Source of the DNA: Sabellastarte sp. h YS-2021
Lineage: Eukaryota; Annelida; Polychaeta; Sabellida; Sabellidae
Reading direction: 5' to 3'
DNA length: 64,000 nucleotides
NCBI GenBank assembly: GCA_964017235.1
Contig: OZ024929.1
Span: 25,417,464 to 25,481,463 of the forward strand
Part shown: positions 698 to 62,124 of the stretch, piece after piece
Numbering within the stretch: the first letter of the stretch is position 1
Layout of the letters: the number at the start of each line of letters is the position of its first letter
Made by a program: the position numbers and the translations under genes
The notes under the pieces: model-generated
Databases searched by the model: none
Told to the model about the DNA's origin: nothing
What the model saw: only the letters and a program-made list of their open reading frames with translations

Positions 698-925
698 GGG
701 GCCAAGGTGGCAGAGTGGTAACACTCTCGCCTCCCACCTCTGAGTTCGGTTCCTGGCCTGACCTCAAGTGGGAAAGCTGGTAGTTGCTTGCTGTTGGTTG
801 GCAGTTTACAGTACAGAACCTTGACCACCTGTATGTACTGGGTTCATCTACCCATAAAACTACTCGTTGTGATATGACCTATACAATGTGTTGAAAGCAA
901 TGTACAACCCCAAATAAATAAATAT
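698..925 (+). mobile_element. tRNA-derived SINE, full length
   Basis: The head reads like a tRNA gene: an A-box-like TGGCAGAGTGG at about 708-718 and a degenerate B box near 747. A conserved body follows (AAGTGGGAAAGCTGGTAG) and an AAATAAATAAAT tail. Near-matching direct repeats CACCATGAGA (688-697) and CACAATGAGA (926-935) flank it and look like a target-site duplication. It belongs to the same family as the copies at 48150, 57351 and 58869. It is a non-coding retroposon that depends on LINE machinery. It is more diverged than the copies at 57-59 kb, so it is probably older. Confidence 0.85.
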
Positions 926-1983: not shown

Positions 1984-3674
1984 ATGTCCACCCCACTGGG
2001 GGGTGGACATATTATTTTTGCTTTTTCCGGCGTCCGGCGTCCACAGTCCGTCATGCTTGGTTTCCGGTCATTTCAAGGAAAAGTATTTATCCTATGTTTA
2101 CCAAATTTGGTATGGGTGTTTATTGGGTTTATTGCTTTTGGTGAAGATAGCTCTATAGCTAACTGAGTAATAGCTACTTAGTTACTTTTGTGTACTTCTT
2201 TTGTTTCCGGGCATTTTAAGGAAAAATATTTGACATATCTTTATCACATTTGGTATGAGCAATAGTTAGGTCAACAGCTTGCTTGGGATTGCTTTTAATA
2301 GCTATAAAACTCACTCAGTAATAGCTACTTATCTACTTTTAGTAGCTTTTTATTTTAAGCATTTTAAAGGAAAAGTATTTCACCTATGTTCAGGAACAGT
2401 ATTTATCCTGTCTTTACCAAATTTGGTATGGGTGTTTATTGGGTTAATAGCTTGCATGGGATTGCTTTTGGTGAAGATAGCTCTATAGATAACTGAGTAA
2501 TAGCTACTTAGCTACTTTTGTATACTTCTTTTGTTTCCAGGCATTTTAAGGAAAAAATTTGACATATCTATACCAAATTTGGTATGAGCATTAGTTAGGT
2601 CAATAGCTTGCTTGGGATTGCTTTAGTGATAATAGCTGTATAACTGACTGAGTAATAACTACTTACCTACTTTGAGTAGCTTTTTTATTTTAAGCATTTT
2701 GAAGGAAAGTATTTCACCTATGTTCACAAAATTTGGGATGGAGGATTATTGGATCAGTAGCTTGTGTGGGATTGCTTTTGGTGATAATACCTTTATAGCT
2801 AACTGAGTAATAGCTACTGTGCTATATAGCTATTATGCTATTTTAAGTTGACTTTTTTTGGACATTATAATAAAACAATGTTTTCTAGCTTCACAAAAAT
2901 TTATATGAAGGATAATTGGGTCAGTAGTTTGGCCAGGATAGCTTTTGGTTGATATAGCTTTGTAGCTATCTGAGTAATAGCTGCTTTGCTACTTTGAGCC
3001 TACTCTGAATTGCATTTCTGTTTTTCATTCTTTAAAGGAAACATATTTAACACATCTTTTTAAAATTTGGTATGAAGGTTTATAGCGTCAATTGCTTGCT
3101 TGGTATTGTTGTTGATGATAATAGCTTTAACCTCCTGAGTAATAGCTACATAGCAACAAACATAAAAACATAAATATGTACATGTATTATCTCCTAAACC
3201 ATGCGAGATAGAGCGATATCGTCGAAAGTTTTGACCCACAGAGTATCTAAGAAATGTACTATAGGCAATTTTCAAAAAATTTTCCTCTCCCCAAAAATGG
3301 TGGCCATTTTGAAGTTTCGAATTGTTGCCAAAGATGGAAAAACACAAATTTGCTTCTATCTCCTTAACCATGCAAGATAGAGCGATTTCGTCAAAATTTT
3401 CCACCCATATGGTATCTCAGCAAACTACTCTTTGCAATTTTCAAAAAATTTCCTCCCCCCCCCCCCCCATTTTGAATTTTCAAATTTTTGCCAAAAATCC
3501 AAAAACACAAAGTTTCTTTTATCTCCTTAACTGTGTGAGATAGAGCAATTTCGTCGATTTCCATCCACAGGGCATATCAGCAATCTATTCTTGCCAATTT
3601 TGTCCAAGTTTTAGAGCAAAACTCGTGCTTCCCTTTGGGTGGACATTACGCATGCCAATGCGTCCTATTGCTAG
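1984..3674 (+). mobile_element. Helentron-like non-autonomous element with tandem cores
   Basis: The left end is a palindrome (TGTCCACCCC, short loop, then GGGGTGGACA, about 1986-2009). One arm, GGGTGGACA, recurs near the right end at 3637-3645. A perfect 6-bp hairpin, ACGCAT-gcca-ATGCGT, lies at 3648-3663, and the element stops at CTAG (3671-3674) before TTTT. The left flank ends in TT. This is the layout known for Helentron-associated elements: terminal palindrome or sub-terminal inverted repeat, 3' hairpin, CTRR-type end, T-T insertion. The interior has about seven degenerate units of roughly 165 bp (2040-3150) and then about three units of roughly 170 bp (3180-3600). There is no coding capacity. 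Confidence 0.7.
2040..3150 (+). repeat. ~165-bp tandem core repeats
   Basis: The phrase GAGTAATAGCTACTTA and close variants recur every 150-180 bp, together with AAATTTGGTATG and a TTTTAAGGAAAA-like segment. The units are diverged, so the array is old. A second array with a different unit (centred on ATCTCCTTAACC and GATAGAGCGAT) follows at about 3180-3600. Both lie inside the Helentron-like element. Confidence 0.75.
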
Positions 3675-3784
3675 TTTTCGGTTGGAAACAACATTTGGCA
3701 ACTTGATATTTATTATTTGGAAAGTAAAACTAACATTTTTACTGTAAAGTTGTTTTGTTGTATGTTACCTTTATTAAAATGACC

Positions 3785-3925
3785 TAGCTTATTCCTGACT
3801 GCAGCTTATACTTTGAATAACACCTTTATTGCACTTTATATGCTGTAGCTTATTCGTGACTGCTGCTTATACTTTAAATAGGACCTTTATTGCACTTTAT
3901 ATGCTGTAGCTTATTGCAGACTCCT
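3785..3925 (+). repeat. 61-bp tandem repeat, about 2.3 copies
   Basis: TAGCTTATTC starts near 3785 and 3846, and TAGCTTATTG near 3907, a 61-bp period. The units include TTTATTGCACTTTATATGCT. No coding potential. Confidence 0.8.
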
Positions 3926-3928
3926 GTT

Positions 3929-4180
3929 TGAGTGTTATTTGTTCCATTTGCAAAACCGTGTGATCATGCATTCACCTTTGCATACAGATTTCCACTAGCT
4001 GAGTGGTTTACCTGAGTGTTATTTGTTCCATTTGCAAAATCGTGTGATCATGCATTCACCTTTGCATACAGATTTCCACTAGCTGAGTGGTTTACCTGAG
4101 TGTAATTTGTTCAGTTTGCAGCACCGTGTGGTCATGCATTCACCTTTGGATACAGATCTTCCACTGGCTGAGTGGTTTAC
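3929..4180 (+). repeat. 84-bp tandem repeat, 3 copies
   Basis: GAGTGTTATTTGTTCC begins near 3929 and 4013, with a variant near 4097, giving a period of 84 bp. Each unit contains GTGATCATGCATTCACCTTT (or a one-base variant) and TCCACTAGCTGAGTGG. Units 1 and 2 are nearly identical, unit 3 more diverged. The period is divisible by three, but I find no conserved open frame through all three units. Confidence 0.85.
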
Positions 4181-6054
4181 AATTTTGTTTTCTTGTAACT
4201 TCCCTCTCATCTCTCTGGTCATTGGTTTCAAATCTATTTTCACTGAGGCTTTGTCCAAATATAGTATTAACTTTTGAAAAGGACATAAAACGGCCACTTT
4301 AACTTCAAGTTCAATTTATTACCTCATGATTCCCCAAGACTACTTACATAAGTGTCCATCCCATCTCCACCATGCAATCACTTCTTCAAGTCTTAGCCAG
4401 GAAAGATGAAAGTTTGCAAAAGGTGTGATGCCATTGATGGTGTACCTTGAGATGAAAAACTATAACTGATGGAAACAATAACCTACGAATTCAAAAAGTG
4501 TATCAGATTTGCCCTCCTCCCTCCGACCCACTTCAAGGTTAATTGTTGTCGTAAAGGTCATTTTCATATATTTTGCAGTTCATATCACAAAGTAATTCCT
4601 GGAATGGAATAGGATTGCATATAATAATTCTCTGGGAGTCAATGAAAGTTCTGCAAAGGGATTTTGTCAACTGAGTGGGTTTCAAGGTCACTTTTATGAC
4701 CCTAAATGGGTCAGTTGTTGAGATTTTGCTGCATGACTCCTTTACCATTGAACATTGAGCTTTGAAATGTATTGAGAGGTAATAGGACACCATGGGCTAG
4801 GAATTTAAAAAGTAAATCAGGTTGCCCCAAGACCCCAGTCAAAGTGAAGACCACAGAGATTAAATTTGGAACGTGTTAACCACTCAGCTTTGTGGTTATT
4901 TTAGGTCAGAGTACTCCCACTTCAATAATGGGTGTCCTATAAACAGGTCTTAGTGAGATTCTGGAACGAGGTTTCGGGCAAACAGTTGTAGCTAATTCTA
5001 ACAGTACTGTTGTAGTTTCTCCCTGTACAATTCCAAGGGCAGAAACATTTTATCTGTCCATTAAATGTCCATATTTCATGTTTTCAGTTCTGCCAGCTAC
5101 TGCTGTGAATCATGCCACACCTGTACAGGGAAGAGTCATCCCCTCAGGAAAAAAATGGTAGAGCTCTCTGTGGCAAATTACTCATGCAACAAATGACACA
5201 TAACCCATCCATTTGTTGGGAATGTATCAATATGTATACTAAATCAGTTAATGTGCATGGGCCAGTGAAAAGACTGTGTACAGTTTAAATAAGGCATTTG
5301 ATTTACAGTAAGAATATTGAGCGACTTTAAGTCTGAGTCACCATACCAGGGTTCCAATCCTGTAGAAAATTATACAGTAAATCTTCTCTGACTTAATTCT
5401 GTTTAGCAGAAATACAAAACCTATAATGCATCCAAAAATAAGACGAGGCAAGACAAGCTCCATTACAAGGATCACTAATTCGCTATTACCATCATAAATG
5501 TATCGGCATACCTGATTTTTTTTCCTCCAATAAAATAGTAATCTATTTCTTTATTTGTGTAAAGGTAAGAAAACCAGGTTTTATGAAGAACATTTTTCTG
5601 CAGTAACCTTACAAAAGCTGATTATTTTCCCTGTGGACTTTTATGTTGTACCATGACACTGAATGACTTTAAGTCATCCCTGCGCTGTTTCTTTGATCTG
5701 ATATCACTGATTGCTTTCATCCTAATGCATGCGTTCTTTCTGTAGCTTTTATTTTCTTTTGCTGCTAATACCTGGTATTTTCATTGATTCCCCCACTTCC
5801 CAATAATGACAAGAGACCCTCCATGGATACATCAGAAGGGATTCTAACCAATCAGAGGTTTTGTTACATTGCAGTGGCACTACTGGTGGCAGTTGATTCA
5901 AAGCATGTTTACCTGTGTATGACAATTGTCCTCAACAGACAGGGTTATACACTTTTTTACACAGCTGTTCCGTCCATTATTGGATTGGAAATGAAAGTCA
6001 CAAAATTACCCAATAGGAGCTTTCAGGGACACTTATTGTTATCGACACTTATAG
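4181..6054. other. No gene identified
   Basis: Unique-looking AT-rich sequence. A 93-codon open frame at 5784-6065 has no family resemblance and runs into a transposon end, so I do not call it. Nothing else is supportable. Confidence 0.45.
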
Positions 6055-6062
6055 CCATTCAC

Positions 6063-6283
6063 TAGCGGATTGGGGGTTTGAACCCCCCCTCGAAAAATAA
6101 TGTAAAGGGGTTCAACCCAAAGTACAAAAATATTTCTTGAGAGTGATGTTAAATTTACAGGAAATGCACTATATTTTTACCAAAAATTAATTTTTTCCCT
6201 GGGGGAGCATGCCCCCCGACCCCCCTAGTTATGGTATGTCTGATGTGAACCCCCACCTTACTTAAAAGCTGGATCCGCCCTTG
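6063..6283 (+). mobile_element. Short hAT-like non-autonomous element
   Basis: A 221-bp unit with G- and C-runs near both ends. The right end is GGATCCGCCCTTG; its reverse complement (CAAGGGCGGATCC) resembles the left end (TAGCGGATT). CCATTCAC (6055-6062) and CCATTTAC (6284-6291) flank it, a 7-of-8 match suggesting the 8-bp duplication made by hAT transposases. A second copy lies at 45485-45773. No coding capacity. The hAT assignment is an inference from the duplication size and terminal bases. Confidence 0.6.
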
Positions 6284-18295: not shown

Positions 18296-19107
18296 CTTTC
18301 TCACCCAACAAACAGACAAACCCACTGTTAAACAAAAGCCAAACACAAAGTCACACATTATATCCGAAATTAAATTATTTTTTTATATATTTTCAAATCC
18401 ACATCATAATTTCACCAATTCTTTTTGTTCATGGCTTTGAAATTTATTTGTAGCAGAAAGGTTTTCATGGAAATCTTCAATTTTAAATCTTCACTTCTAA
18501 TCACAAAAATTTGGAAAATATACCCATGGAACTAGTTTTGCTTTCAATAATGGGGGATTGTGTTTGCAAAATAGTTTGTCAGTTTGTTGGCATGGGTTCT
18601 ATTTACTTTTGGGTTTGTGTGTTTGTTGCTTGGTGGTTACTGGGGTTGGGTTTATTTTTGGTAGTTGGGTGTTAGGTTTGGTACTGGGTTTGTTATTTGG
18701 GGGTTATGTTTGGTGTTGGGTTTGTCTGTTTGTGGGTTGGAAAGTATGTGATAATGCCTTTTAAATCTAGGGAAGGTGTAAGTGTTGGACTTTTCTATTA
18801 AAGATTTTAAACTATCCCATGGATTTTAATCTAAAAATGGGCTGATTAATGGCCATATTGGGAGTTACTTTTTATTTTTTTTATGTGGCCTTTTTTGTTA
18901 TGTGTGGTACCATGGGTTATTTGTTTCATGTTTGGGGTGGTGTAGGTGTTGGACTTGAACTTTTTTTTTCTTGTGATAAGTATTTGTACTGAACTTTTTT
19001 GTTTTGGGAGGGGAATTGGAAGAACACGTAGCTGAATAATTGTTTTTGGAAGATTTGGTGGCCCTGAAAAGGGCCTGGCAGGTCAAAGACCCGCCCTGAC
19101 TGGATGG

Positions 19108-47815: not shown

Positions 47816-48690
47816 CCAACATTACCTAGTAGTGATATTGGTCTAGCATACCCAACAGCTGTGTATGCAAGATCTATATCATCACAGGTGTACCCAACAT
47901 CTATGTATACAAGATCTATATCACTGTTAGTGTAACCAATTTCCATCAGTTCTCCCTTGAAGTCATTGCTGACGTGTCCTTTAAATTTTGTCAAAATGTA
48001 ACAATAATTAAGCTATTCTGCCCACAAACAGAACTGTTTCACAGTGCAAACCCATGCCAAGCTGAATAATAATTTTAATCCAGAGAGTGATCCTTGGCCC
48101 ATTTCTGACTACTCATAAAGTTTCCTAAAAAAACTAATTACTTCACAATTTATTTATTCTGGGTTTTACGTCACTTTCAACATTGTACAGGTCATATCAC
48201 GATGGGTAGTTGGAAGGGCAGAGGAAACCAGTACATACAGTTCGTCAGGGTTCTGTACTGTAAACTGCCGACCAACGGCAAGCAACTACCAGCTTTCCCA
48301 CTTGTGGCTGTGCTGGGAACCGAACCCCGGCCTCAGAGGTGGGAGGAATTACTTCACAATGCCTTGGACCTGTTGAGTACACTGTAAAAGGTACTGATAT
48401 TGAGTGCACAACCATTGAGTACACACTGCTTAGTGCTTACTGCCTTGGATAATGAGAAATCCAGTTCGCTGTTAAAAATTTGGAGTTGTTGGGTATGCTA
48501 GCAGTGATCTTGTGTACACAACCACTGGGTATACTAGACAGATATCATTGCTGGTGTTCACAGCCGTTGGATATGCTAGCAGTGATATAGATCTTGTCTA
48601 CACAGCAGTTGGGTACACTAGACAGACACCACTGCCAACGTACACAACCGTTGGGTGCACTAGCAGTGATATCGATCCAGCATACCCAGC
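47816..48690. mobile_element. Fold-back-type array, locus 2
   Basis: Units like those at 8590-10100 occur in plus orientation at 47830-47940 and inverted at 48485-48690. The core between them, read on the minus strand, matches the core of locus 1 (GAGTAGTCAGAAATGGGCCA, CCAAGGCATTGTGAAGTAAT). A SINE is inserted in this core at 48150-48346. Peptides such as YTSSDIDLVYTAVGY from these frames are translated repeats. Confidence 0.75.
48150..48346 (-). mobile_element. 5'-truncated SINE with perfect 14-bp duplication
   Basis: Minus-strand copy of the SINE, starting at CCTCCCACCTCTGAGG and so lacking the A box and tRNA head. It ends in the AATAAATA tail. AATTACTTCACAAT flanks it on both sides (48136-48149 and 48347-48360). 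The locus-1 core at 9830 keeps the uninterrupted site (GTGAAGTAATT), which confirms an insertion. Confidence 0.92.
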
Positions 48691-52387: not shown

Positions 52388-53025
52388 TCTAATACATTGC
52401 TTTGTAGACACAATATCTTCCCCACAATGGATAACTCAGTGTGCTAGGTTAACTAAAGTATTATTCAAATCATTAGTCAAGGGACAATCTAGGTCAGTAT
52501 TCCAGAGTTGTGGGTATGACCGCACACTCTATGAGTGTTCCTAGTTTGTATTGGTTTCAGAAAAATTATTATGTCTAGCATACAACATCATCAGAGGTGA
52601 CTAGTACTGTCCTTACTACCCCAAATTTTTAAAGTGAATTCTTTATTGTTGATAATTGGTAAATATCTTGCCTGTTAAGAAATGACCAAACAAAGCTTTC
52701 ATGTGTGATTTAAACATATTGATACTAAGTTTTCTGCTATAAGATTTAAGTGTGAGCATTATGGATAAACCAGAAAACAAATTCAGTGAGAAGTTTGTGT
52801 TAAACTTTTCAGAGGAATCTCTTTGTGTGTTTAACCTTAGGATTGCATGTATTTAAATTTTGGATGTCAGAATTTTAACATTGGTGTGTCTTGCCTGTTT
52901 GAAAAACAAACATGATTTAACCCATTTCCTAATTAATTTTTTTTTTATCTTTCTAAGCTCTGTGTTTTTTTGGTGATTGTTTTTATTATCCTGTTATAAA
53001 GGTTCTGATTGTCAATTGAGTAACT
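52388..53025. other. No gene identified
   Basis: AT-rich sequence between two Helentron-like elements. No exon recognised. Confidence 0.45.
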
Positions 53026-53375
53026 GTATCCGGTGGATACTTTGGTTTAAATTTTCGGCGTTAACAATCTCAGGGGAAAACTAAACCAGCTAGGTTCGCC
53101 AAATATGCAGGATATCTTCATTGGAGGTTAAGCTTCTCTGGGACTAAAATTAGGCTCATTCTGAAAAACAAGATGGCCGCCGCGGGCATTTCTTTGAAAA
53201 TTATCTGCATTTTTCTACTGTCTGTTTCTCATAGGTAGAAGCTTGAATCTCTTCATAGGTGATATGTAGAACAGATATGCATGTCATCTACAACCTTGCA
53301 GACATTTGACCTTGAAGCTCTTAATTCAAGGTCATCCACAGAGTGCCAAAGTACCCGATATAGCAGACTTTAAGT

Positions 53376-53983
53376 GCCTGTACCTTCGTTATTATTGGTC
53401 CTAGAGGTTTGCAATGTGAAACCAACGTATAGGAAATCATGGGTTGGGAATCTTTTGATGTGGTCAGATTTGACCTTGGACCCCTCCTTCAAGGTCAAAC
53501 GAGGATACCCAAACTTAAAAGTGCTTATAACTCGCTTATTATTGGTCCTAGAGGTTTGCAATGTGAAACCAACTTATAGGAAATCATGGGCTGGGAATCT
53601 TCTGATGTGTTCATATTTGACCTTGGGCCCCTCCTTCAAGGTCAAACGAGGATAGAAAAACTTTAAAGTACTTATAACTCTCTTATTAGTGGTCCTAGAG
53701 GTTTGCAATATGAAACCATCCTATAGGAAATCATGGGCTGGGCATGTTCTGATGTGTTCAGATTTGACCTTGACCCCTCCTTCAAGGTCAAATGAGGACA
53801 CCCAAAGTTAAAAGTTCTTATAACTCGCTTATTATTGGTCCTAGAGGTTTGCAGTGTGAAACCAACCTATAGGAAATCATGGGTTGGGAATCTTTTGATG
53901 TGGTCAGATTTGACCTTGGGCCCCTCCTTCAAGGTCAAACGAGAATACCCAAACTTAAAAGTGCTTATAGCTCAGTTATTATT
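53376..53983 (+). repeat. 147-bp tandem units, left block (about 4 copies)
   Basis: GGTTTGCAATGTGAAACC-type segments recur near 53405, 53551, 53698 and 53844. Each unit also holds TAGGAAATCATGGG, GATTTGACCTTGG, CCCCTCCTTCAAGGTCAAAC and CTTATAACTCGCTTATTATT. The array resumes at 57241, 58301 and 59818. The translated repeat (LEVCNVKPTYRKSW) in several frames is not a gene. Confidence 0.92.
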
Positions 53984-54179
53984 ATATCCCCAGACGAAAG
54001 TCGGGGATATATTGGATTCAGGTCCGTCGCGCCGCCGCTGCCGCCGCCGCCGTAGAAATTTCCTTGTGGACGCGATAACTCAAAAACAAATTAATATTTT
54101 TTTTTCAAACTTGGTACACATGTTAAGGGTGCCCAAAGGAAGATCCCTATTTTAAGGTGACCTTAAACTCCCAGTAAAA

Positions 54180-56040
54180 AAGAACTTATGGCCACCTTAA
54201 GGTCAGAAATTGGACTTTTGGCCACTTAGAGCCCTGTAGGTCACAAACTATGATGCTCAGCTGGCTGAAATTTTACCTGACAACACATTAATATGTTCTT
54301 AGTACATGTGCCGAAAATCACGACTTTAAGTTGAGGAGAAAATTGTGTTTGAGGCCCATAAATACCCCCACTTGGGGATTTTTTGCTATACTTTTCACAT
54401 ATTTTGCCCTATAATTTGGAAGTGGTCATTCTGATGAGTCTCAAACTGCGCTAGGTATAACTTTGATATGTAATCCTTGTCTGTAGAAAATTTTAGGGCT
54501 GTAGGTTTACCCAAAGGGGTCGACTTAAGGTCTCAAAAGTGCCCACAGAGACCCAATTTATGCACTTTTTGCCACTTTCAAGCACTGTAGCTTTCAAACT
54601 ATGTCTCTCATCTAAGTTAAATATCATCTGGGAATATATCTATGTGTTTTCTTATATGTGCCCCAACATTTAGGCCTTTAATAGACAGTTAACCTGTGTA
54701 TCAGGACCATAAACACCCACCCGAGTGACCCTTATAAGACATTTTTCACATCTTTTTCCCTGTAACTTGGAAATGGTAAGTCTGAGAAGTTTCAAACTGT
54801 ATTAGATATATATTCTGTGTGTAATCTTAGTATGTAACAGATTTTAAGTCTGAAGCTTTAATTTTGAAGGTCAAATTGAGGTCTCTAAAAGGCTCCCAAA
54901 GACCCAATATTTGGACTTTTTGCTACTTTTAAGCCCTGTGACTGTCAAACTATGTGACTGATAGAGCTCAAATCCTATCTGGGAAGATATTAGTGTGTTA
55001 TTTATATATGTGCCAAAAATTAAGGCTTTAAGAAGACATTTAACCTGTGTATGAGGACCATAAATCCCCACCCGAGTGACCATTTTTAGACATTTTTCAC
55101 ATATTTTGCCCTGTAACTTGGAAATGGTAAGTCTAAGAAGTTTCAAACTCTATTAGATGCATATTCTATGTGTAATCTTAGTATGTGACAAATTTTAAGT
55201 CTGAGGCTTTAATTTGAAGGCCACATTTAGGTCTCTAGAAGGCCCCATAAAGACCCAGTATTTGGACTTTTTGCCAATTTTAAGGCCTGTGACTGTTAAA
55301 CTATGTGACTGATAGAGCTGAAATCTCATCTGGGAATACATTATTATGTTCTTTTTACATGTGCCAAAAATCAAGGCTTCAAGTAGACATTTAACCTGTG
55401 TATGAGGACCTTAAACACCCACCTGAGTGACCCTTTTAAGACATTTTTCACATATTTTGCTCTGTAACTTGGAAATGGTAAGTCTGAGAAGTTTCAAACT
55501 TTATTAGATACATATTCTATGTGTAATCTTAGTATGTAACAAATTTTAAGTCTGAAGCTTTAATTTGAAAGCCACATCGAGATCTCTAAAAGGCCCACAG
55601 AGACCCAATATTTGGACTTTTTAACCACCTTTAAGCCCTGTGACTGTTAAACTATGTGATTGATGGAGCTGAAATCCCATCTGGGAATGCATTATTATGT
55701 CCTTTTTACATATGCCGAAAATCAAGGTTTTTAGTAGACATTTAACCTGTGTATGAGGGCCATAGACACTCGCCCAAGTGCCTTTTTGGACATTTTTTCC
55801 GTATTTTGCCCTGTTATTTGGAAATGCTTAGTGTGACAAGTCTTAAACTGTATTATATATAATTTTTGTTTGTTATGTATGTCCCCCAAAAAGTTTCAGA
55901 TCTGTTGTTTAATTGCTAAGGTCTCTTTAACAATTGTAAAATGCCCACAGAAACCCAATTTATGGACATTATGCCACTTTAAAGCCCAGTAACTGTCAAA
56001 CTATGTGGGTTATAGAGCTGAAATCTTTGAATTTTTAAAA
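54180..56040 (+). repeat. 351-bp tandem array, about 5 copies
   Basis: The AGACCCAAT-type anchor occurs at 54550, 54901, 55252, 55602 and 55952, a spacing of 350-351 bp. Each unit also has AAGCCCTGTGACTGT, GCTGAAATC, CTGGGAATA, TTTAACCTGTGTATGAGG, TGCCCTGTAACTTGGAAATG and TCTTAGTATGTAAC. Inner copies are more alike than the outermost ones, as expected for a tandem array. No reading frame is conserved. Confidence 0.93.
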
Positions 56041-56777
56041 GGAAATGCCTGTCTATTTAAATTTTGAATATAAATAATGTTATGGCTATCTTAGTCTTTT
56101 AAGAACTTATTTTTGTGTGTTATACCTCTGCTTGCTGAGTTTTTAACTTTTTAAAATGAAACTGGTTAAACATATTCAAGTAGACAAAATGGACACTTTA
56201 AGTGAGCTTTAAGTCCCAATATTAATGAAATTATATCCTTATGTAGTAAAAGTAGGGGATTTTTAACCCTCAACTAGCCCAGTTTTATTCAACTTGCCTC
56301 AGTTAATTTTGACACAGCTCCTACAGTTATGAACTCATTTCAGTTGATAATCACATACTTAAAATTCTCAATTCTTTTTGTATTTGAGTACCCCTTTTAT
56401 ATAGATTGTTTGTTTACCATTTATGCATCCCCCACCCGGATTCCCCCCACCCACCTCTGGGACCTCCAGCTATATTGAGTGACACTAAATAAACAAAGGT
56501 ATTTAATGATATCAGATGAGAAACAAAGAACTCAATGGGGTTGCAGATCTTGTGTAATAGTGAGAGAGGTGTGGAGAAGGGGAGAGGGGTGGGGGTGGGA
56601 GGTGGTGGGCTTCATTACATATAACACAAAGGGGAGTCAGAACTGAGATTGTGTCACATATTTAGGTTGCATATATATGGACCACATATATAGGTATAGA
56701 GGAAATGAATAACTGAAAACAATTTGCAAATTCTAAAAATAATATAATAAAATAATAATATAAATAATTTTTTTTTA

Positions 56778-57012
56778 AATAATATTTTATTTGTGAACAA
56801 ATATAGAAACAGATATGCGCTTTTGGGATTATGAATTTTAGAATGGACATTGAATCATCAATCATTTAAATACTTTGAAGGAAGATTGAAAAGTATGATG
56901 AGTTGAGTTAAAAATAATATTTTATTTGTCAACAAATATAGAAACAGATATGCTCTTTTGGGATTATTATTTTAGAATGGACATTCAATCATCAATCATT
57001 TAAATACTTTGA
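56778..57012 (+). repeat. ~133-bp tandem duplication
   Basis: AATAATATTTTATTTGTGAA, then AGAAACAGATATGC, CTTTTGGGATTAT and AATCATCAATCATTTAAATA, occurs twice, beginning near 56779 and 56911. It lies in the right half of the nested Helentron-like element. Confidence 0.8.
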
Positions 57013-57350
57013 AAATAGGTTTAGAGTTATCATTGCAGGAAGATTGAAAATATAATTTGAGTTATGTATTCGGCGTCTGGGGATACACCATCTTCCTTGG
57101 AAGATATAAACAGAGTAGATTGATGTGCTGAAGTTCATATAATAATGGGTAATTATGTTTTAAAAAATTCCCGATCAAAACCTGTGGCGTGAGTGATGAC
57201 CTGTCTGGGGATATGTTGGCGCCGAGTTGGCCCAATCTAGTTGATCCTAGAGGTTTGCAGTGTGAAACCAACTTATAGGAAATCATGGGCTGGGAATCTT
57301 CTGATGTGTACAGATTTGACCTTGGGCCCCTCCTTCAAGGTCAAACGAGG

Positions 57351-57588
57351 GGGCCACGGTGGCAGAGTGGTAACACTCTCGCCACCCACCTCTGAGGCCA
57401 GGGTTCGATTCCCGACACGGCCTCAAGTGGGAAAGCTGGTAGTTGCTTGCCGTTGGTCGGCAGTTTACAGTACAGAACCCTAACGAACTGTATGTACTGG
57501 TTTCCTCTGCCCTTCCAACTACCCGTCCTGATATGACCTGTACGGTGTTGAAAGCGACGTAAAACCCCAAATAAATAAAGAAATAAAT
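57351..57588 (+). mobile_element. tRNA-derived SINE, full length
   Basis: GGGCCACGGTGGCAGAGTGG (A-box region), GGGTTCGATTCCCG (B box), a conserved body and an AAATAAATAAAGAAATAAAT tail. A perfect 15-bp duplication CAAGGTCAAACGAGG is at 57336-57350 and 57589-57603, drawn from the host 147-bp unit. The intact boxes suggest a young copy. Open frames across it on the minus strand are not genes. Confidence 0.95.
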
Positions 57589-57630
57589 CAAGGTCAAACG
57601 AGGATAGAAAAACTTGAAAGTGCTTATAAC

Positions 57631-58300
57631 TAGTGCTGTCGCGACACTCGCTACTTCCGATTCTATCATTTGCTAGGTCTATAAAGAGCGATAATCTGAT
57701 GCGTTTTTTCAGATCTGATTGCAAAGGTAGTAGCATATTTATATAATAAAGATAGAATATATTTAACAGTGAAGGATTATTCAGCATTTTAAAAGATATT
57801 TTCAGCCTTTTGACAACACAGTCCATACAAATCTAGTCACATGACCTATCAGGAAAGCATTAAACCCTTGCTCGAATGTAGTTTCGGAATTGCATCTTTA
57901 TTTTTATTTCTGTTTTTTTTTTTTTTGCACTTGGTAAGTTAATTTAATTGACGTAAAGCTTTCAAGTAATCTTTAAAAACACTGAAGTTCTATTTATTTG
58001 AGGTGTACATGATATTACGTAGCCATTATGTAGCACTTTATAAAGTCGGAATTAGATAATTATTTTAATTTACTGACGGTTTTCAAAGTGTTCCTACGTT
58101 TGACAATGCATAAACAAGCGAAATGAAAGGGCAAATATGACCCTAAAATGATGTTTTCAGGTGAGAAACAAAATATTATTTTATATTTTAATTAAATAGC
58201 TTTGTTTTGAGGTGAGTTTATGAAGTCGACATATGTCGGTACTTGGTTGGCCAACGTGGGCGAGATCCGATGTTATTTGTACCAGTGAGTGACAGCACTA
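57631..58300. mobile_element. hAT MITE, 670 bp
   Basis: Ends TAGTGCTGTCGC (left) and GTGACAGCACTA (right) are inverted with one mismatch. A perfect 8-bp duplication CTTATAAC lies at 57623-57630 and 58301-58308. It is inserted in a 147-bp unit just downstream of the SINE. Contains a T-run near 57909-57925 and no coding frame. Confidence 0.9.
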
Positions 58301-58424
58301 CTTATAACTCCATTATTATTGGTTCTAGAGGTTTGCAATGTGAAACTAACCTATAGGAAATCATGGGCTGGGAATGTTCTGATGTGTTCAGATTTGACCT
58401 TGGACCCCTCCTTCAAGGTCAAAC

Positions 58425-58758
58425 GAGGATAGAAAAACTTTAAAGTACTTATAACTCTCTTATTAGTGGTCCTAGAGGTTTGCAATATGAAACCATCCTA
58501 TAGGAAATCATGGGCTGGGCATGTTCTGATGTGTTCAGATTTGACCTTGACCCCTCCTTCAAGGTCAAATGAGGACACCCAAAGTTAAAAGTTCTTATAA
58601 CTCGCTTATTATTGGTCCTAGAGGTTTGCAGTGTGAAACCAACCTATAGGAAATCATGGGTTGGGAATCTTTTGATGTGGTCAGATTTGACCTTGGGCCC
58701 CTCCTTCAAGGTCAAACGATAATACCCAAACTTAAAAGTGCTTATAGCTCAGTTATTA
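58425..58758 (+). repeat. 147-bp units between the duplicates
   Basis: About 2.3 units almost identical to 53660-53983, including the variant AATATGAAACCATCC. The last unit keeps the uninterrupted site that holds the nested element at 53984. Confidence 0.9.
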
Positions 58759-58868
58759 TTGATCCTAGAGGTTTGCAGTGTGAAACCAACTTATAGGAAA
58801 TCATGGGCTGGGAATCTTCTGATGTGTACAGATTTGACCTTGGGCCCCTCCTTCAAGGTCAAACGAGG

Positions 58869-59106
58869 GGGCCATGGTGGCAGAGTGGTAACACTCTCGC
58901 CACCCACCTCTGAGGCCGGGGTTCGATTCCCGACACGGCCTCAAGTGGGAAAGCTGGTAGTTGCTTGCCGTTGGTCGGCAGTTTACAGTACAGAACCCTA
59001 ACGAACTGTATGTACTGGTTTCCTCTGCCCTTCCAACTACCCGTCCTGATATGACCTGTACAGTGTTGAAAGTGACGTAAAACCCCAAATAAATAAAGAA
59101 ATAAAT
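58869..59106 (+). mobile_element. tRNA-derived SINE, duplicated copy
   Basis: Same insertion as 57351-57588, carried by the segmental duplication: identical 15-bp duplications at 58854-58868 and 59107-59121, differing by a few transitions (mostly C/T or G/A at former CpG sites). Confidence 0.95.
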
Positions 59107-59148
59107 CAAGGTCAAACGAGGATAGAAAAACTTGAAAGTGCTTATAAC

Positions 59149-59817
59149 TAGTGCTGTCGCGACACTCGCTACTTCCGATTCTATCATTTGCTAGGTCTAT
59201 AAAGAGCGATAATCTGATGCGTTTTTTCAGATCTGATTGCAAAGGTAGTAGCATATTTATATAATAAAGATAGAATATATTTAACAGTGAAGGATTATTC
59301 AGCATTTTAAAAGATATTTTCAGCCTTTTGACAACACAGTCCATACAAATCTAGTCACATGACCTATCAGGAAAGCATTAAACCCTTGCTCGAATGTAGT
59401 TTCGGAATTGCATCTTTATTTTTATTTCTGTTTTTTTTTTTTTGCACTTGGTAAGTTAATTTAATTGACGTAAAGCTTTCAAGTAATCTTTAAAAACACT
59501 GAAGTTCTATTTATTTGAGGTGTACATGATATTACGTAGCCATTATGTAGCACTTTATAAAGTTGGAATTAGATAATTATTTTAATTTACTGACGGTTTT
59601 CAAAGTGTTCCTACGTTTGACAATGCATAAACAAGCGAAATGAAAGGGCAAATATGACCCTAAAATGATGTTTTCAGGTGAGAAACAAAATATTATTTTA
59701 TATTTTAATTAAATAGCTTTGTTTTGAGGTGAGTTTATGAAGTCGACATATGTCGGTACTTGGTTGGCCAACGTGGGCGAGATCCGATGTTATTTGTACC
59801 AGTGAGTGACAGCACTA
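59149..59817. mobile_element. hAT MITE, duplicated copy
   Basis: Second copy of the 57631 element, with the same CTTATAAC duplication (59141-59148 and 59818-59825), produced by the segmental duplication and not by transposition. Confidence 0.9.
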
Positions 59818-60163
59818 CTTATAACTCCATTATTATTGGTTCTAGAGGTTTGCAATGTGAAACTAACCTATAGGAAATCATGGGCTGGGAATGTTCTGAT
59901 GTGTTCAGATTTGACCTTGGACCCCTCCTTCAAGGTCAAATGAGGACACCCAAAGTTAAAAGTGCTTATGACTCACTTATTATTGGTCCTAGAGGTTTGC
60001 AATGTGAAACCAACGTATAGGAAATCATGGGTTGGGAATCTTTTGATGTGGTCAGGTTTGACCTTGGGTCCCTCCTTCAAGGTCAAACGATGGTTCACTG
60101 GCTTTGGTGATTTGTCTTTCCGGTGGATAAAGATTTGCATCGGTCATCGATGCGTAGGTCTAG

Positions 60164-60538
60164 TTGTTTGATGATGTTTTCTTGATCGGGTGAGTTTGTA
60201 ATTTTTCCAGCAAGTTGTGTTTTATTTGTACTTCCCTTTTAGTATTTTAGACAGTCAAAAGTAATTAAAATCAAAGTTAGAGTATTTTTGTGCTAAATTA
60301 CAAATGATAAAGACAAGATAAAACAAAAAATCCTTTATACTTTCAGATATTTTTTACATAAGAAAAAAAACTTGTGGGTATACATTATATCCCTGAGTTG
60401 TTTATTTTTTACATATAATATGTTATTTCTGAATATAATAACCATTCTCTGCTTCAACTGTTTACATGAAATTGGTACTGTATAATTAAAGCCATAATAT
60501 TTTAAATAATAAGATGTTTTTGTTCTGTTTTCTTTTAG
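60164..60538. other. Sequence between the repeat nest and the SKIC8 exon
   Basis: AT-rich, ending in a T-rich tract and the acceptor TTTTCTTTTAG. The missing SKIC8 start codon is not found in frame here. Probably intron 1. Confidence 0.5.
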
Positions 60539-61649
60539 TTTGCATTGGTGTATAAAGAGGAACAAGGTATGATAACTACACAAGCAAAAATAAATTACAC
60601 AGATCCTTGTAAAAATTAAATGTTGCAAACTGTGCAACATTGTAGAGTTTTTAAGAATGTGTATTTAATTATATAAAGTTATCAAGAATTTGTGTAAACT
60701 ATTTGATGATGACATTTCTACTTATATTCAAATAACATTAAATTACTACAGAAAAGCCACTATCGGAAAGAAAAATCAGGATTTTATGAGACATGGACAT
60801 GCCTTCCCTAAAAACTAGGGTGACATAACTGTCATGGTAACAGCCTTGGTTGTCATTTGTCAGTAGAGTGTTTTTGTTTGAACAGAATTTTAGTTAGTTA
60901 TTGGCAAAAATTAACCTGAATACACTTGTGAATGTGTTCTGTGTACAGCACATGAGGACAGTATCTGGAGCTGTGCCTGGGGTCGCAGTGAAAACGATGG
61001 CTCAGAGTATATCGTCACAGGATCTGTAGATGACACTGTCAAAGTTTGGAAGTGGTAAATACTTGAATGGACACTGATTTGTGTACAACTTTCATGTTTC
61101 CTTTGTTGATTTCACAAGAATTTTAATATTTGCAAAATTGGTGATATGAAACAATAAGGGAGTAATCTTTGCTGTTATAGTTTGTAACGACACGGATACA
61201 ATTTCCACATATGGATAAAATGTGGTTGTCTGGAATATAATGCAAGTCATTGGTTAGCATGAAGCATGTTTGAAAAAATTATTGCCAAAGATGAAAATTA
61301 CCCTAAACCACATTCAGATTGCTGCTGGGTTTACTAGTATTTCAGATAATATTGTTGCAATTTAGATAATTGTCCAGTAATCAGTTTAAATAAATGCCTT
61401 TTTTTGAATGCCCGCACCCCTCCATCCCAAATAATTCTACCTATATAAGATTTCTAGATGAGGGTAAATATCAATAGGAAGGTTCCCTAACCATCTGATA
61501 TTTCTGTATGAGGACTTTGTACTTATCAGACCTACACTTACAGGTGTTATATTTCTGTGTTAGGCATCAGGAGAAGCTGGAGTTGAAGTACACTCTAGAG
61601 GGTCACCAGTTGGGTGTGGTGTCAGTGGACATCAACGTTCGAGGCTCCA
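60539..61649 (+). CDS. SKIC8: SKIC8/WDR61 WD-repeat protein, exons 2-4 (partial)
   Basis: Exons 60539-60566, 60949-61054 and 61564-61649, each bounded by AG/GT, join in phase. They read [29 protein letters not shown], then [16 protein letters not shown], and [20 protein letters not shown] followed by VDINVRGSS. This follows the N-terminus of animal SKIC8/WDR61 closely, covering WD repeat 1 and the start of repeat 2. The protein is a seven-bladed propeller that serves the cytoplasmic SKI complex (exosome cofactor) and the nuclear PAF1 complex. The start codon exon is missing: the human protein has four or five more residues before this point, so a tiny coding exon must lie upstream. Later exons are beyond 64000 or unrecognised. 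Introns carry LINE debris. Confidence 0.92.
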
Positions 61650-62124
61650 GTAAGTACTCTTTCCTTGTGCAGTAAGAATGTGAATGTATTCTTTGGTTTT
61701 GGTTTTGCTAGTATAGCCTTGAAAACCATTGAAAATGGTGTAATCAGGGTTATAACAATATGAGAAAAAAGAAATTAGCGGAAAATCTACAGTATAAAGA
61801 TGTGTTTACAAGAAGATACTTTGACAGGATTGTTTCCTGTTCAATCTGAAAAGGGTTTGATCGGCATACTCAGCTGGTTAAACTTGCTTTAACTACAGTT
61901 ATTAAAACCCCATTATTGAAACGGAGTACATACACTGAGCCATGGTGGACATGTAGACAATATACAATCAATTGCAATTTGATTCTGTTTACATTACAGG
62001 CATTGCCCTAGACTAGACAATAATCTCCTTACACTGCCAAGTTACAGCTGGTACATCACTAGCCTAGTTTCAAAACTCTGCATTCTGGGGGACACAGCCC
62101 CCTATTAATTGCAAGTCAAGTTAC
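61650..62124. other. SKIC8 intron
   Basis: Follows the strong donor GTAAGT at 61650. No exon with WD-repeat similarity was recognised up to the LINE fragment. Confidence 0.5.

Follow-up and report, generated by a model that had tools for sequence, protein, structure and literature searches.

A Helentron-type element with nested insertions and an apparently duplicated array in the genome of Sabellastarte

The pearl elements of Crassostrea virginica are reportedly short arrays of ~160-bp units held between short conserved ends, a plan that the locus described here shares by description, not by sequence. Pearl elements are also named in a study of Cg_HINE of the Pacific oyster (PMC7492417), a group of non-autonomous Helentron-type rolling-circle elements (HINEs); that study also describes copies integrated into other repeats, as well as elements that bear two arrays. 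Here we examine a 7.1-kb candidate HINE at 53026..60163 (+) of a 64,000-nucleotide stretch, hereafter the window, of the genome of the polychaete Sabellastarte sp. h YS-2021 (assembly GCA_964017235.1, contig OZ024929.1, positions 25,417,464 to 25,481,463 of the forward strand). It encloses an array of 147-bp units, a second HINE, and two copies each of a short interspersed element (SINE) and a hAT-like miniature inverted-repeat transposable element (MITE). The family shares with Cg_HINE a 5' subterminal repeat with a complementary inner repeat, a 3' repeat with a palindrome, and a TT target; the central array of Cg_HINE likewise consists of satellite-like monomers, of 138-181 bp and in one cluster of 147 bp, and a microsatellite is part of Cg_HINE. 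Judged from its sequence and that of its relatives, the whole of 53026-60163 is very probably a single HINE, of a type common in this genome. The kind of element is already known.

Paired ends of the outer element

We read 53026-60163 as one HINE because its two ends pair in genomic relatives, both when these are approached from the left side and when they are approached from the right. In the window's own genome (1,785,957,881 bases, ~1.79 Gb, in 647 contigs), a left-end query of 201 bases gave 2,258 candidates at first look. Forty of them were scored, each at least 85% identical, and 39 of the 40 lie outside the window; 20 of these 39 were taken with 8-9 kb each, including all seven whose match begins within the first 4 bases. 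With a right-end query of 81 bases there were 989 candidate places, 40 scored (39 besides the window) and seven of the 39 read. The relatives are hand-picked, high-scoring copies and not a random sample. In 16 of the 20 left-end relatives the left flank leads through 147-bp units to the same right end, at a distance from the left match of 681-2,900 bases; the number of monomers ranges from 1.8 to 14.7. In all seven right-end relatives, the left flank and units lie upstream of the right end and share its orientation. Units lie downstream of the left end, in fixed orientation, in 20 of 20, and begin within 23 bases of the left flank in 19, the other (L010) having them after 764 bases. An earlier note, made from the letters of the window alone, had proposed one original element and suggested looking for short versions with the same two ends; such versions are present in the genome itself at the distances just given, and the pairing (16 of 20 and 7 of 7) bears the proposal out. 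A chance match of the two termini was rejected on the same evidence, from left and from right. Exact-pattern scans of viral contigs gave 0 matches, and a text search of a paper library for the terminal, monomer and SINE sequences gave 0 papers.

The outer element, including all nested parts, has the borders CT/GTATCC...CTAG/TT, and it is its left flank, 147-bp units and right end that co-occur in the relatives. At the 5' end stands the palindrome GTATCC-GGT-GGATAC (GTATCCGGTGGATAC; 53026..53040, +), a hairpin by folding, followed by the left flank (53041..53388, +), delimited by search and alignment of genomic relatives. Tandem-repeat and monomer delimitation places monomers U1-U4 and the first 8 bases (TTATTATT) of U5 at 53389..53983 (+), monomers U6-U8 and the first part of U9 at 58313..58868 (+), and U10 with the partial last monomer U11 at 59830..60110 (+); the 11 monomers thus delimited comprise ten of 146-147 bp and the partial last one. 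The 3' end (60120..60163, +) consists of the subterminal repeat CCGGTGGATA (60120-60129), the hairpin GCATCG-GTCAT-CGATGC (60137-60153) and CTAG (60160-60163), after which comes TT. Judged by its reading frames, the element codes for nothing: its longest stop-to-stop frame, of 163 aa, runs across SINE and MITE.

Both termini lie where the earlier note had put them, 7.1 kb apart; the left motif is a 13-bp deletion form and not the end of the family. Exact matches to CCGGTGGATA occur in the 64 kb at the left and right termini only, and with one mismatch allowed the count is four, where 100 shuffles averaged 1.01 and one of them reached at least four. What the two ends have in common is a motif that forms the inner arm of the left terminal palindrome and recurs at the 3' subterminal repeat. 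From the HINE anatomy set out in PMC7492417, we suspected the left palindrome of being a collapsed form, and intact relatives (e.g. L012; also L015) begin TT/GTATCCACCGG-AGGCAT-CCGGTGGATACTTTGG, whereas the window copy is a form of GTATCCACCGG-AGGCAT-CCGGTGGATAC that lacks 13 bases between two ATCC. We accordingly rejected the 15-bp motif as the true end of the outer family. An intact 3' end reads CCGGTGGATACAAATTTGCATCGGTTCTCCGATGCGTAGGTCTAG/TT (L027), and in intact relatives the 5' and 3' subterminal repeats are mutually inverted at 11 of 11 bases (CCGGTGGATAC versus GTATCCACCGG). The pattern GTATCCACCGG-N(1-12)-CCGGTGGATAC occurs at 3,011 places genome-wide, compared with 0 for the same pattern read backwards as a control; it is its own reverse complement, so that the count is equal on both strands, and its spacers vary among the places listed, so that sister subfamilies may be counted in. 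Of 27 relatives scanned by motif search, 20 had a recognisable 5' end, bordered by TT in 19, and 17 a recognisable 3' end, bordered by TT in 16.

Several observations weigh against this reading. The right end is truncated in four of the 16 paired relatives (L011, L018, L021, L023), and none was found in four of the 20 left-end relatives (L016, L020, L022, L026). The window copy itself carries CT, not TT, at its 5' border and is without the GCC-rich, microsatellite-like stretch that many relatives have, and that was seen by eye in the left flanks of several of them as well as in the inner HINE. In addition, the autonomous Helentron examined, in copies L041 and L042 (see below), has subterminal repeats unlike those of either HINE and is not their direct partner, so that none was identified. 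If the left and right ends came from two different elements, the 7.1 kb would be a mosaic, and the direct rather than inverted orientation in which the terminal motifs of the window match could be cited in its favour. The left palindrome, which relatives retain intact, accounts for that direct match, and the pairing found in them from either end is the same as in the window; we therefore regard a mosaic as most improbable and prefer a single HINE.

Nested insertions and a recombinant monomer

The SINE and the MITE sit in U5 and again in U9, with identical target duplications. SINE copy 1 (57351-57587; 57335..57603 with its target duplication, +) and copy 2 (58869-59105; 58853..59121, +) both have the 16-bp target duplication TCAAGGTCAAACGAGG on either side; MITE copy 1 (57631-58300; 57623..58308 with its target duplication, +), with ends TAGTGCTGTC/GACAGCACTA, and copy 2 (59149-59817; 59141..59825, +) share the 8-bp target duplication CTTATAAC. 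The MITE is classed as hAT-like by its short inverted ends and this 8-bp duplication. For the SINE, tRNA-like boxes (A and B) were recognised by eye only; ARAGORN found no tRNA in the window, and Rfam gave no match there. Partial SINE copies lie elsewhere in the window at 698-922 (+) and 48149-48346 (-), respectively 84% and 92-94% identical to the HINE-borne pair.

The monomers around these insertions are also near-identical in pairs (U3 and U7, 100%; U4 and U8, 99.3%; U5 and U9, 100%), and U6 links the two series. Over the stretch compared, U6 equals U10 up to 58423 and U2 from 58405 on; its last difference to U2 falls at 58404 and its first difference to U10 at 58424, which leaves a crossover interval of 19 bases (58405..58423), with U10 sequence on its 5' side and U2 sequence on its 3' side. 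U6 reads as a U10/U2 recombinant, the signature of unequal exchange between monomers U10 and U2. The duplicate copies differ by six substitutions and one gap over 1,536 aligned bases (0.39%), five of the six being CpG transitions; a comparison that runs slightly past the crossover gives seven differences in 1,530. Such similarity points either to a recent duplication or to a misjoin of haplotypes.

The inner HINE (53984..57242, +; 3,259 bp) lies at a TT in U5. Its 5' end has ATATCCCCAGAC and GTCGGGGATAT, that is, a 5' repeat with its complementary inner repeat intact, unlike that of the outer copy in the window; then follow the GCC-rich stretch, 4.2 copies of a 351-bp tandem repeat (54392..55859, +, by tandem-repeat detection) and a 3' end with GTCTGGGGATA, a hairpin and CTAG/TT. 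Up to two T at its edges could belong to target or element. The element is present in U5 only and was not duplicated; U9, which from 58753 on is the intact counterpart of the site, keeps an uninterrupted TTATTATTGATCC with one TT, and here a 2-bp duplication and an element-borne T are inseparable. A full-length relative in L026 is 98.7% identical over 3,268 columns and has TT borders. The 3' subterminal repeat has a second copy at 57075-57085, 128 bp before the terminal one, possibly a trace of an older 3' end. At L032 the reading frame of a Helitron Rep is immediately adjoined by a 5' portion of the inner family, 99.1% identical; we rejected this locus as the autonomous partner of the inner HINE, since it is probably more simply explained as an insertion into the Rep frame. 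An apparent head-to-tail adjacency of two HINEs at L050 was likewise rejected, other sequence following the first 3' end.

Because both copies of the SINE and the MITE have the same target duplications in U5 and U9, these insertions appear older than the duplication; between themselves, SINE and MITE cannot be ordered. Absence from the duplicate, with its intact site in U9, makes the inner HINE either the latest arrival or a polymorphism when the duplication took place. The sequence supports a succession from array, through insertion of SINE and MITE, to a duplication of ~1.52 kb. This is the order that the earlier note had given, now with the crossover resolved inside one monomer. Its inventory, of 147-bp units, a second element of 3.26 kb, a SINE and a hAT MITE, the latter two duplicated, was also confirmed; its description of the locus as expanding finds its support in a single duplication.

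Comparable events are found in some relatives. L009 has a tandem duplication of its own (3726-6205 as oriented in the left-end comparison), with 18 mismatches in 2,480 bases (99.3% identical), which takes in the right end and ~600 bases of flank, with a junction of a different type from that in the window. Monomer pairs of at least 96% identity within one array occur in six of 20 copies (seven pairs in L009, two in L015, and one each in L014, L021, L024 and L028). Recent multi-monomer duplication is thus a feature of the window copy and L009, not a general rule. L015 is inserted in an array-like relative of opposite orientation, beside a TTATTATT, and the array of L022 runs into a relative of the inner element, ~80-85% identical and with the right end of the inner family.

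The HINE could be real and its duplication an assembly artefact, in which the 147-bp repeats led to the fusion of two haplotypes, only one of them carrying the inner element. The presence of the inner element in copy 1 and not copy 2 is what such a misjoin would leave, the junction falls inside a repeat monomer, and the copies differ by less than the heterozygosity reported for M. mercenaria (1.34%; PMC7831173) and for D. polymorpha (2.13%; PMC9210306), values that are a yardstick for bivalves only. We nevertheless consider a misjoin unlikely: each flank (52900-53025 and 60164-60300) occurs just once in the window, the 147-bp register is preserved in the product (as it could also be after a join through repeats), and the separate duplication in L009, with its different junction, indicates that such events recur, unless it is an artefact too. 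Less probable still, and a bare possibility only, is that the inner HINE predates the duplication and was then precisely removed from copy 2, or that gene conversion reset that copy. Such conversion is generally common among the monomers of arrays. The U9 site, however, is scarless and shares with U5 a GATCC variant absent from all other monomers of the array, and precise excision is not known for rolling-circle elements. An unequal exchange between monomers, with the inner HINE in one of the two products, remains our preferred account.

Autonomous Helentrons and the neighbourhood

Among 36 candidates, the genome gave 24 matches to PF14214 (Helitron_like_N) at E <= 0.001. Twelve of these loci with 1.5-kb flanks and two of 10 kb (14 Helitron_like_N in all) contained no outer flank or right end by BLAST and no exact subterminal repeats, most termini lying beyond the sequence taken. 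L041 has a frame of 2,237 aa with Helitron_like_N, PIF1 and a C-terminal Exo_endo_phos domain (E 2.3e-4; 21.4 bits, below the Pfam cut-off of 24.5); in L042, a 98-99% identical copy, a frame of 1,783 aa ends inside the helicase and no endonuclease was seen. The 3' terminus of this pair is the point at which their sequences cease to agree, directly behind CGCAACCCGCCT and a possible hairpin, and the 5' terminus, AGGTGGGTTGCG...CAACCCGCCT followed by a GTCC/GTCT microsatellite, was read from anatomy in one copy only. Between microsatellite and frame there are two arrays, of 187 bp and 164 bp, with 3.1 copies each. The L041, L042 and L043 loci hold two near-identical Helentron copies, of which the one with the open frame also has 126-bp repeats inside the frame. 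A predicted Rep-PIF1-endonuclease Helentron in this genome shares the end anatomy of the HINEs and has tandem repeats of its own.

A third HINE-type element (49966..~51036, +) lies ~2 kb upstream of the outer HINE, with ends GTATCCCCGGACG...CGTCCGGGGATAC, a hairpin and CTCTGG/TT, and a 174-bp array of 2.3 copies. Folding z-scores against shuffles were -2.8 (outer), -4.6 (inner) and -4.6 (third element) for the 5' ends and -2.9, -1.1 (weak) and -2.4, respectively, for the 3' ends; at the 3' end of the third element the minimum-energy fold also pairs further bases. A more distant relative at ~32009-29950 (-) has different ends (ATCTCCC..GGGAGAT) and a GTCT stretch, together with a monomer-like unit (30171-30035) and a stretch resembling the outer left flank (31832-31778). 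Elsewhere, 19035-19080 (-) matches the Rfam histone 3' UTR stem-loop (RF00032, 35.2 bits; cut-off 34).

The earlier note had placed the element beside SKIC8, and an exon at 60927-61058 (43-aa translation) does match WDR61/SKIC8 chains, at residues 14-49 of 6gmh_W. By whole-sequence score seven other WD40 chains come out ahead, but the WDR61/SKIC8 rows are the best of those in which a stretch is significant by itself. The next exon, read by eye at 61499-61675, supports the assignment to SKIC8/WDR61. A candidate preceding exon was seen by eye at ~60540, and the outer HINE ends ~380 bases upstream of it; the element thus lies either just upstream of SKIC8 or in one of its introns.

A proposed history and its relation to known systems

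We propose that the outer HINE landed just upstream of SKIC8, or in its intron, and that its 5' palindromic repeat, its 3' repeat with hairpin, and the TT borders would be recognised by the Rep-helicase-endonuclease that an autonomous Helentron encodes; this machinery is inferred from the family. The 147-bp array may then have acted as a landing site, in which the SINE and the hAT-like MITE entered one monomer and the second HINE used the TT in the TTATTATT start of a monomer. It could also have served as a substrate for recombination: pairing of U10 on one chromatid with U2 on another would duplicate ~1.52 kb holding U3-U5 with the SINE and MITE. The second HINE would have reached one of the two copies after the duplication, or through exchange between chromosomes with and without it. 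More tentatively, HINE arrays here may in general offer repeated TT landing sites to further Helentrons and undergo unequal exchange of very recent date, with loci such as the present one, near the conserved gene SKIC8, segregating in copy number; the arrays may also have been inherited from autonomous Helentrons that already have such arrays beside the microsatellite, rather than being captured filler DNA. The age of the duplication, and its possible polymorphism, are likewise inferred.

The locus offers a clean and datable case of a satellite-carrying transposon becoming a longer composite locus, in which transposition, recombination and decay are separable to the base. Should the duplication prove polymorphic, the growth of arrays could be assayed directly in living populations. 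An autonomous Helentron with arrays of its own also bears on the question, raised in PMC7492417, of whether HINE repeats are captured or internal in origin.

Against Cg_HINE as presented there, and compared by description rather than by sequence, the window copy differs in having reached 7.1 kb by nesting and duplication and in being without a microsatellite-like stretch (PMC7492417). With the HINEs and Helentrons of the mite Metaseiulus and DINE-1 of Drosophila (PMC4067079), it shares palindromic subterminal or inner repeats, a 3' stem-loop, TT insertion and internal tandem or simple repeats, and in both cases an autonomous Helentron has a Rep/helicase fused to an endonuclease; there the partners share ends with the HINEs, whereas the one Helentron whose ends were reached here has other ends. 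The 'shuffled' Helitron/satellite loci of oysters, as reviewed in PMC12628747, similarly combine insertion, tandemisation and recombination of arrays within and between Helentrons. What distinguishes the Sabellastarte locus from these is that the crossover interval, the intact site and the divergence of one event can be followed to base level.

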